DNA from: Bacteroidota bacterium
Lineage (GTDB): Bacteria > Bacteroidota > Bacteroidia > Chitinophagales > Chitinophagaceae
Reading direction: 5' to 3'
Assembly: GCA_024640225.1 (NCBI GenBank)
Contig: JAHEFK010000002.1
Coordinates: 1 to 64,000 of the forward strand
DNA length: 64,000 nt
The notes beneath the pieces were generated by a model, which saw only the letters and a program-made list of their open reading frames with translations, was not told the origin of the DNA and ran no database searches. Within the stretch, counting starts at the first letter, position 1. Each line of letters begins with the position of its first letter. This document shows positions 7,282 to 53,877 of this stretch, in pieces. A program made the translations under genes and the position numbers.

Positions 7282-8934
<1,653 letters not shown>

Positions 8935-8949
8935 TTATTTTTTGATTGA

Positions 8950-37363: not shown

Positions 37364-37467
37364 ATTAAATTAATTGGACATCATTTTTGGTTGTCAACAA
37401 GTTTTCAACATTTAAAAAAAAGATTGAAAAATATTTTTTTGTAGTGATTTTTTTTCTAATATTGTGT

Positions 37468-37538
37468 AAGGATTGTACTTACTAACCCATCCTCATAAAA
37501 GTCCGACACCCAACGCAACTGGTCGGACTTTTTTTTAT
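37468..37538 (+). ncRNA. Candidate small RNA A (about 70 nt) ending in a terminator
   Basis: A promoter-like TAATATTG (37457-37464, one mismatch to TAnnTTTG) precedes it. The predicted transcript has a 5-bp hairpin, AGGAT (37469-37473) with ATCCT (37489-37493). Its loop exposes ACTTACTAACCC. A strong terminator follows. ACTTACTAACCCA is exactly complementary to a segment of candidate RNA B at 52374-52386. It could instead be only the terminator of the preceding gene. Confidence 0.4.
37497..37537 (+). terminator. Intrinsic terminator
   Basis: An 11-bp stem (37497-37507 with 37522-37532, core GTCCGAC/GTCGGAC) with a 14-nt loop is followed by T5. It ends the BatB-BatC transcript or the candidate small RNA. 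Confidence 0.85.
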
Positions 37539-37724
37539 TCCCTAAAACGCCCTAAATTCAATGCTTTCAGAAAATTGTTTGGAGCATAAGAAAATTCAAA
37601 ACATTAATTAAAAAGAAGGGGCAGTTATTTTTATTAAAATAGTTTTTGTCATTTTGGGCAAACCTGATTTCATACGTACCTTTTTTTTAAAATAATTTCT
37701 CACTCAAGAGCGCTTATAATTTTG

Positions 37725-52016: not shown

Positions 52017-52347
52017 GTTGAAAACTACAAATTTTAGTGCAAATTACAATCCTTGGGAGTAAAACTACCCCCGAAATCGACTCAAATTTAATAAAACATA
52101 AGAATATAATAAATTATAATATGAAAGGGTGTCCGTAAGCATTTACTTTTTTATACATTACAATAATTTAATTTTGATTTGAAAAATGAATATATAATTA
52201 ATTATATTATACTATAAATACTATAAATCATATAATTATGCATAGTTATTATAAATAATTTAATATTTTATTAATGTTTTTTAAACCATTATTATTTTTT
52301 TTGATAGCAATATTTTAAAATCTTTTTTTCAGTTTGCCATGATTTTG

Positions 52348-52355
52348 TACCTTTG
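52348..52355 (+). promoter_or_regulatory. Promoter -7 element for candidate small RNA B
   Basis: TACCTTTG matches TAnnTTTG and is followed within 66 nt by an intrinsic terminator, with no coding frame between. Confidence 0.55.
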
Positions 52356-52360
52356 TACTA

Positions 52361-52420
52361 GTTGTGAATTTACTGGGTTAGTAAGTTAGGCCGTTCCGAT
52401 TCTTCGGAATGGCTTTTTTA
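52361..52420 (+). ncRNA. Candidate small RNA B (about 60 nt)
   Basis: It is bounded by a TACCTTTG promoter box and a strong terminator. The 5' part folds as TTACT-GGGTT-AGTAA (52370-52384). The sequence TGGGTTAGTAAGT (52374-52386) is exactly complementary to ACTTACTAACCCA in candidate RNA A at 37477-37489. Only tiny open frames exist. It may be a separate sRNA or a short early-terminated leader upstream of radA. Confidence 0.5.
52390..52419 (+). terminator. Intrinsic terminator of candidate small RNA B
   Basis: A 10-bp stem (GCCGTTCCGA with TCGGAATGGC, one G-T pair), a 4-nt loop TTCT and T6. Confidence 0.85.
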
Positions 52421-52506: not shown

Positions 52507-53877
52507 ATGGCAAAAACAAAAACAGCGTTCTTCTGTCAACAATGCGGTCACGAAACTCCGAAGTGGAATGGCAAATGTGCATCTTGTGGTGCATGGAATT
52601 CTATAGTTGAAGAAGTGATTCAGAAAGAAGATAAAAAATTGGTAAATCAGATTTGGGAAGATGGAAGTCAACAAAAAGTAAGTGCCCAAAAAATTGATGA
52701 GGTACAATTTACCGAGGAACAACGCATCGCAATGCCCGATTCGGAAATCAATAGGGTATTGGGTGGCGGCTTAGTGCCCGGTTCTGTTATTTTGGTTGCA
52801 GGCGAACCAGGGATTGGTAAATCAACGCTGTTTTTGCAATGCGCATTACAATGGAAAAATAAAATTACACTTTATGTTTCGGGTGAAGAAAGTGCTCAAC
52901 AAATAAAAATGCGTGCCGAACGGATGCAATTAAAAAATGAGCAAGTCTATTTATTAAACGCAAGTACTACTCAAACAATTTTTCAGGAAGCAAAAAAAAT
53001 TAAACCCGATTTAATCATCATAGATTCTATTCAAACAATGGAATCGTCTTTAGTAGAAAGTGCTGCAGGAAGTGTATCTCAAGTTAGAGAATGCGCCGCT
53101 GAATTTCAACGATTTGCCAAACTAAGTAATATACCTGTTTGCATTATTGGGCATATAACCAAAGACGGCACCATTGCCGGACCAAAGGTTTTAGAGCATA
53201 TGGTAGATACGGTACTCCAATTTGAAGGTGATCGTCATTATGCCTATAGAATAGTGCGTACTCTAAAAAACCGTTTTGGATCTACTTCAGAATTAGGAAT
53301 TTACGAAATGCAATCGACGGGTATGCGTCCGGTTGCTAATCCCTCAGAAATTTTGCTTTCGCAACATGATGAGCTTTTAAGTGGCATTGCTATTGCTGGT
53401 ACCATGGAAGGATTAAGACCGCTTATGATAGAAGTGCAAGCCTTGGTAACCAATTCGGTATATGGTACACCGCAGCGAACAGTAAGCGGTTTTGACACGC
53501 GTAGAATTCAACTTTTGTTGGCCGTATTAGAAAAAAGAGGCGGATTTATGTTCGGCGCCAAAGATGTTTTTGTCAATATTGCTGGGGGCATAAAAGTAGA
53601 AGATCCTGCAATTGAATTAGCACTCGTATGTGCTCTATTATCTTCTTACGAAGAAAAACCATTGCCCTCCAACATAGTATTAATTGGAGAAATAGGCCTT
53701 TCTGGTGAGATTAGAGCCGTAAATAGAATTGATCAACGGATTGCTGAAGCAGAAAAGTTGGGCATGGATGCAGTTATTGTTCCTAAAGCTAATGCTAAAG
53801 GTTTAGACACTACTAAATTTGGTATTAAAATAAAATGGGTAAATAAAATAGAAGACGTTTACAAGTTAATTTTTTAG
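52507..53877 (+). CDS. radA: DNA repair protein RadA
   Basis: A RecA-like ATPase that helps branch migration during recombination. The 456 residues have a zinc finger (FFCQQCGHETPKWNGKCASCGAW), Walker A AGEPGIGKST, Walker B LIIIDSIQTM, and the RadA-specific LKNRFGSTSELGIYEM (KNRFG motif). A Lon-like C-terminal domain has GGIKVEDPAIELAL and GEIGLSGEIR. I use ATG 52507; the TTG at 52498 overlaps the promoter. comF follows 9 nt later. Confidence 0.96.
   Translation: MAKTKTAFFCQQCGHETPKWNGKCASCGAWNSIVEEVIQKEDKKLVNQIWEDGSQQKVSAQKIDEVQFTEEQRIAMPDSEINRVLGGGLVPGSVILVAGEPGIGKSTLFLQCALQWKNKITLYVSGEESAQQIKMRAERMQLKNEQVYLLNASTTQTIFQEAKKIKPDLIIIDSIQTMESSLVESAAGSVSQVRECAAEFQRFAKLSNIPVCIIGHITKDGTIAGPKVLEHMVDTVLQFEGDRHYAYRIVRTLKNRFGSTSELGIYEMQSTGMRPVANPSEILLSQHDELLSGIAIAGTMEGLRPLMIEVQALVTNSVYGTPQRTVSGFDTRRIQLLLAVLEKRGGFMFGAKDVFVNIAGGIKVEDPAIELALVCALLSSYEEKPLPSNIVLIGEIGLSGEIRAVNRIDQRIAEAEKLGMDAVIVPKANAKGLDTTKFGIKIKWVNKIEDVYKLIF

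Follow-up and report, generated by a model that had tools for sequence, protein, structure and literature searches.

A predicted small RNA with complementarity to a histone-H1-like mRNA leader and its candidate leader-mimic sponge in Chitinophagaceae

Introduction

CJnc190 and CJnc180 of Campylobacter jejuni form a pair of a trans-acting small RNA (sRNA) and an antagonist RNA. The antagonist in this pair is cis-encoded (PMC8687705). In Vibrio cholerae, QrrX is a sponge of the Hfq-dependent quorum-sensing sRNAs Qrr1–4, and a LysR-type regulator drives it (PMC9732341). In Chlamydia, IhtA represses the H1-like hctA mRNA; it contains three stem-loops and engages its target by a 6–7-nt loop clamp around the AUG, and a sponge for IhtA is not mentioned in that work (PMC4355289). 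GibS of Bacteroides thetaiotaomicron (PMC7366714) is an intergenic RNA of ~145 nt with its own promoter and terminator, and directs a conserved single-stranded 5′ seed to the start regions of metabolic targets.

Here we describe two short RNA genes, RNA A and RNA B, predicted in a window of 64,000 nt from a Chitinophagaceae genome. They reside at separate loci, at distances of 15 kb to several hundred kb from each other. No description of either RNA was found in Rfam 15 or in the literature searched. The original prediction had singled out the two loci for a shared complementary segment; going beyond it, we report a candidate mRNA target, a second complementary segment and DnaA-box-like sites.

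Results and discussion

The shared segment is the 13-mer ACTTACTAACCCA on the forward strand (37477–37489), the exact reverse complement of which lies at 52374–52386, and the claimed complementarity was exact on re-check. No further exact copy occurs anywhere else in the genome of 1.85 Mb. A composition-based estimate yielded ~0.02 expected chance matches of 13 nt between two 400-nt AT-rich regions, which agrees with the earlier figure of about 1 in 100, and the match by itself is weak evidence. It is not ascribed to chance because both segments are conserved across the family while the terminator stems vary. When one mismatch was allowed, the genome itself contained seven matches, as many as for the reversed control (seven); the five extra sites fell mostly within genes. 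Given this lack of excess, a 13-mer regulon in this genome was rejected. An Rfam scan of RNA A and RNA B returned nothing that reached a gathering threshold, the best sub-threshold matches being far below it.

Promoters, terminators and family-wide conservation recognized at both loci support the original prediction of two terminator-bounded short RNAs (Table 1). RNA B has the attributes of an sRNA gene: it is short and intergenic, and it possesses its own promoter and intrinsic terminator (52333–52419 and homologues). The textbook −7 box of Bacteroidota is TAnnTTTG; TACCTTTG of RNA B fits this consensus, and TAATATTG of RNA A is one base off. The AT-rich stretch 5′ of the RNA A −7 element is conserved as well. 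RNA B is organized as TAnnTTTG or TAATTTAG, followed by a 22–27-nt seed (GAATTTAATGGGTTAGTAAGTA) and the terminator, with an AGTTGTG extension of the seed in the window's clade (the near clade). In folding predictions the seed is open in the other genomes inspected, and a weak seed hairpin is predicted for the RNA B of the window. Outside the window's genus, the seed region equivalent to 52366–52386 reads AATTTA ATG GGT TAG TAA; this conserved mini frame (start-Gly-stop) could be coincidental.

Table 1 Features of the RNA A and RNA B loci in the window
Feature	Position	Strand	Basis or remark
Two tandem DnaA-box-like 9-mers TTGTCAACA, TTTTCAACA, preceding the promoter of RNA A	37391–37410	+	Sequence
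RNA A −7 promoter element TAATATTG	37457–37464	+	Nearly invariant in aligned homologues
RNA A, predicted sponge/leader mimic, ~68 nt	37469–37536	+	Covariance models; start placed from the promoter
RNA A 5′ hairpin	37469–37493	+	Stem 37469–37473/37489–37493
RNA A pairing site 1 (13-mer)	37477–37489	+	Exact complement in RNA B
RNA A intrinsic terminator	37501–37536	+	Stems 37501–37507/37522–37528, T-run 37529–37536
RNA A pairing site 2, terminator loop CGCAACT	37514–37520	+	Complementary to RNA B 52360–52366
RNA B promoter (TTTG 52333–52336 and TACCTTTG 52348–52355)	52333–52355	+	TAnnTTTG kept in clade
RNA B, predicted trans-acting sRNA, ~60 nt	52360–52419	+	Sequence model; predicted start
RNA B seed AGTTGTGAATTTACTGGGTTAGTAAGT	52360–52386	+	Complementary to H1-like mRNA leader and RNA A
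RNA B 13-mer complementary to 37477–37489	52374–52386	+	Exact match
RNA B intrinsic terminator	52390–52419	+	Stems 52390–52399/52404–52413
radA, next gene 3′ of RNA B at most loci	52507–53877	+	tblastn with window RadA

In most genera, RNA A consists of TAATATTG, a GGGAA-loop-TTCCC hairpin, the open segment GTACTTACTAACCCATCC and the terminator. The window's clade carries a different hairpin (AGGAT/ATCCT) that encloses the pairing segment; in other genera a hairpin is kept at the 5′ position in another layout. The 5-bp hairpin and the terminator claimed for the window are both present, and the placement of the 13-mer within the hairpin loop applies to the window's clade. In most genera the segment is located just 3′ of the hairpin and the match comprises 15 nt. 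Of the direct pairing modes considered earlier, base pairing as such is what we predict, but a kissing-loop pair is not retained as the main mode since the RNA A segment is looped only in the window's clade, and the RNA B segment is mostly single-stranded. Covariation analysis of the RNA A hairpin gave no signal, the stem being kept in 86% of cells but too invariant. A loose inverted repeat (TGAAA..TTTCA, ~30 bp) at 37543–37578, 3′ of the RNA A terminator, recurs in relatives.

BLASTN searches of 59 relatives revealed both regions in other genera. In a hand alignment both 13-mers were kept and the terminator stems differed, which is the opposite of the pattern named as refuting the original prediction, a 13-mer lost behind constant terminators; the paired segments persist across the family while the stems change. 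An exact scan of named genomes extended to Chitinophaga, Sediminibacterium, Niabella, Terrimonas, Segetibacter, Ferruginibacter, Taibaiella, Flavihumibacter, Puia and others. Covariance models, a check that the original prediction had named, were applied to RNA A: the first gave matches in 210/294 genomes of the Chitinophagaceae, nearly all with a single copy, and a second, better model, for which the other half of the family served as training set, recovered all 26 Chitinophagaceae (26/26) from a sample that spanned the order. Outside the family this sample gave a single weak match to RNA A that was unconvincing on inspection. A sequence model of RNA B matched 269/294 genomes and 87/92 genera of the family; in the same order outside Chitinophagaceae, RNA B was absent or weak, and the best matches did not read as RNA B. 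Both are near-universal, essentially single-copy genes of Chitinophagaceae and absent outside at this sensitivity. In g31 (G032, G137, G188 and G231, all four in the sample) RNA A was present and RNA B undetected, so that either RNA B has diverged or RNA A has another partner there.

By tblastn, radA follows RNA B at most loci, at variable distance, and no radA was found at those of G003, G171, G075 and G149. A role of RNA B as radA leader or attenuator was rejected because radA is not always adjacent and the spacing varies.

Per-genome comparison showed an A/B duplex of 15 nt in most genera, perfect or with wobble pairs in most genomes, and the paired segments of both RNAs are near-invariant while the terminators change. 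In G121 a C-to-T change in RNA A is compensated by a G-to-A change in RNA B. Most other single changes preserve a G–U pair, as in G002, G027 and a clade with GTGCTTAC. Exceptions are G226, where both sides of one pair changed to give an A–A mismatch, g2, where the end pairs are lost, and g73, which is also mismatched. The most extensive joint change concerns the AGTTGTG extension: CACAAC or ACAACT occurs in the RNA A terminator loop in 25 of the 30 genomes with AGTTGTG in RNA B and in none of the 30 without. The site in the window, CGCAACT in place of the CACAAC found in most of the clade, pairs with RNA B via one G–U. As the RadA phylogeny sets the AGTTGTG clade apart by a branch with 100/99 support, the joint change was probably one ancestral event that was then maintained. 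RNA A of g15 (G016) is separately extended, and its duplex reaches the 5′ end of RNA B. Pairing between the RNAs of one genome was slightly but significantly better than between swapped partners (overall p 0.0008; within clades, p 0.03 and 0.02).

The 11-nt core is near-invariant and covariations are few, as would also be seen if the segment were a DNA or RNA site of a single protein, placed in opposite orientation at the two loci and not engaged in base pairing. We regard this as very improbable: the compensatory change in G121 argues against it, as do the lineage-specific additional complementarity (near clade, g15) and matching changes in the leader of an H1-like mRNA, to which we now turn.

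The conserved region of RNA B is longer than the part paired with RNA A. In several genera, a search for the complement of this region gave near matches that end shortly (a few nucleotides) 5′ of the ATG in Lys/Ala-rich genes, several of them right after rpmA. Full-length RNA B-complementary sites showed no clear overall excess genome-wide over the reversed control, RNA B itself aside. The recurrence of near matches before the same type of gene led to the H1-like gene as target candidate. The gene after rpmA encodes a 53–151-aa K/A/P-rich protein in nearly every genome read; that of the window's genome (L556) has 92 aa, among them 37 K and 43 A. These proteins contain low-complexity K/A repeats, and matches to HC2 and to an H1-like NCBIfam model remained below cut-off (HC2, 33.7 bits, cut-off 40; NF038053, 32.7 bits, cut-off 80).

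In 28/28 genomes, including that of the window, the genome's own RNA B seed is complementary to the H1-like leader over ~15–25 bp. The pairing ends ~0–8 nt before the ATG and extends up to the ATG in the near clade; in L556 of the window's genome, the leader TAACCCTTAAATGTCACAACT directly adjoins the ATG and is complementary to AGTTGTGAATTTACTGGGTTA of RNA B. Duplex energies, which were computed without target accessibility or loop-loop pairing, ranged from −15 to −26 kcal/mol for RNA B and the H1-like leader vs. control means of −8 to −11 kcal/mol. Only 1–15 of 1500 control leaders, mostly taken from genomes other than the one tested, paired as well as the H1-like leader, and rpmA leaders of the same loci reached a mean of −8.2 kcal/mol compared to −20.7 kcal/mol for the H1-like leaders. 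TCACA or CACAA precedes the H1-like ATG in 11/12 genomes with AGTTGTG in RNA B, but in 2/16 without it. Swaps of RNA B and leader within clades revealed no specificity (p 0.26 and 0.52).

The leaders of SWIB-domain proteins with a K/A-rich N-terminus (L521, L543, L539, L540, L541) were compared with RNA B as well. Among seven genomes, four leaders paired well, one more weakly and two did not pair. The SWIB mRNA is likely a second target; as the main target it was rejected, since the gene was found in 7/30 genomes only. The window's genome also contains a perfect complement of RNA B over 15 nt at L005 1496–1520 (G000 contig 16, near 98648), overlapping the region just past a dnaN-like stop codon and 5′ of a terminator.

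A sequence resembling the H1-like leader is likewise present in RNA A, down to the clade-specific CACAAC of the terminator loop. RNA A covers the GGGTTA segment of RNA B and, in the near clade, AGTTGTG, both of which are also used on the leader. With a mean of −23.6 kcal/mol, the B:A duplex is stronger than B:mRNA (−20.8 kcal/mol), and thus has what a sponge needs. The sponge/target relation contemplated in the original prediction is in this way supported by sequence, with RNA A as the sponge of RNA B. The stronger A/B pairing and the frequency of A/T-rich leaders in Chitinophagaceae would also suit a scheme in which the two RNAs regulate only each other, for example by mutual decay, and the H1-like match arises incidentally because the leader motif is a common one. 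Such a scheme appears quite improbable, as the conserved region of RNA B exceeds the part paired with RNA A and matches the H1-like leader, neither control leaders nor the rpmA leader pair with RNA B, and the leader change accompanies those in RNA B and RNA A.

We consider it probable that RNA B acts in trans as an sRNA on the mRNA of the H1-like nucleoid protein, with RNA A as a leader-mimic sponge that titrates RNA B. The exposed 5′ seed of RNA B would base-pair with the H1-like mRNA leader, the duplex ending at the start codon or slightly 5′ of it; RNA A would present a copy of the leader sequence in an exposed stretch, pair with the same RNA B nucleotides and titrate RNA B off the H1-like mRNA. 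Most likely, RNA B would lower translation of the H1-like protein and RNA A would relieve this effect. Repression is the default that we infer from the pairing geometry and from chlamydial IhtA. Two RNA genes, their conservation throughout the family, the three-way complementarity and the joint change in one clade can be read from the genomes; transcription, duplex formation in cells, the regulatory sign and control by DnaA are all four predictions.

A number of viral contigs bear on the sign. L448 (IMG/VR, IMGVR_UViG_3300025314_000361) contains at 8880–8945 a B-like RNA gene with terminator next to a tail-lysozyme-like gene, and a terminase large subunit gene is also present on this contig. 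The near-identical contigs L450 (2068) and L454 (3125) exhibit a B-like core followed by a terminator. Possibly, the B-like RNA genes of phages mimic the RNA B of the host. Phage genes encoding 98–346 aa carry TTACTAACCCATTAAATT 6–9 nt before the ATG (L452 4944, L453 8191, L455 10640, L457 4310, L449 2116); L453 and L457 each have an additional, partial copy in tandem. In total, the B-complementary pattern occurred in 19 stretches, ~10 of them distinct, vs. one for a reversed pattern of the same length. No promoter-hairpin-core pattern of an RNA A-like RNA was detected in viral contigs, where 16-mer matches look like chance.

The same triad could operate with opposite sign, RNA B activating or stabilising the H1-like mRNA via its leader and RNA A removing the activator. 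This is a serious rival, since phages would hardly retain B-complementary leaders or B-like genes if RNA B silenced messages of this kind. The four to five distinct phage genes in which TTACTAACCCATTAAATT precedes the ATG by 6–9 nt speak for it, as do the B-like genes of at least two different phages, and the phage leaders fit activation at least as well as repression; moreover, pairing with the H1-like leader stops 0–8 nt short of the ATG and leaves it uncovered in most genomes. In the near clade, however, the pairing reaches the ATG itself, a typical repressive geometry, and no leader hairpin is known that RNA B might open. On balance, we deem activation unlikely and proceed with repression by RNA B.

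DnaA-box-like sites are a further feature of the RNA A loci and, in many lineages, of the RNA B loci. At 60 of 89 loci, a box with at most one mismatch to TTATCCACA is found at a fixed place upstream of RNA A, compared to 2.3% in the background; exact boxes occur at 20/89 loci vs. 1/884 background windows; the window's own TTGTCAACA and TTTTCAACA each differ from TTATCCACA by two mismatches. Upstream of RNA B such a site occurs at fixed spacing in 21/43 far-clade loci vs. ~2% in the background, and in 0/30 of the near clade. These sites suggest that the balance between RNA A and RNA B may be tied to the replication cycle.

Paired boxes and a conserved AT-rich stretch, present once per genome, might also mark the RNA A locus as the chromosomal origin, with RNA A transcribed from the DNA-unwinding region and RNA B as its antisense regulator. 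We find this scarcely credible: the GC skew switches ~0.3 Mb from RNA A in G232 and ~0.1–0.2 Mb away in G122, for which reason RNA A was rejected as oriC, and G122 has another DnaA-box cluster at 5.557 Mb. This cluster (contig 1, 5556635–5556917), whose four DnaA-box-like sites share one strand, lies close to the GC-skew switch and is a candidate for the true origin. For the sRNA/sponge pair itself, we put forward as a tentative and rather doubtful extension that control by DnaA couples synthesis of the H1-like protein to replication throughout the family, and that phages carry B-like RNAs and B-responsive leaders.

Conclusions

RNA A and RNA B would rank with the more widely conserved sRNAs of Bacteroidota. 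The proposed triad turns the dosage of an H1-like DNA-packing protein, and its possible link to replication, into a testable question, and a natural set of sRNA, sponge and target, phage variants included, offers material for studying the co-evolution of RNA pairing. If true, a replication-coupled supply of H1-like protein would parallel in function the replication-coupled histone supply of eukaryotes.

RNA B resembles GibS in being intergenic, in having its own promoter and terminator and in its seed; GibS differs in size and targets, is kept within Bacteroides and has no reported sponge (PMC7366714). The C. jejuni pair (PMC8687705) likewise combines a trans-acting sRNA with a dedicated antagonist, but RNA A and RNA B are encoded at separate loci. 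Unlike QrrX (PMC9732341), RNA A is one sponge for one sRNA, occurs family-wide and is accompanied by DnaA-box-like sites. The nearest functional analogue of RNA B and the H1-like mRNA is IhtA with hctA and CTL0322 in Chlamydia (PMC3469542, PMC4355289, PMC8343073). In both cases an sRNA pairs, or is predicted to pair, at the start of the mRNA of a small basic histone-H1-like protein, and CTL0322 is a second basic-protein target, as proposed here for SWIB. RNA B is distinguished from IhtA by a linear 5′ seed of 20–27 nt, predicted pairing upstream of the AUG and a conserved candidate sponge partner, and is not known to be related to it in sequence. The proposed sponge partner of an sRNA directed at an H1-like mRNA is new compared to IhtA/hctA.
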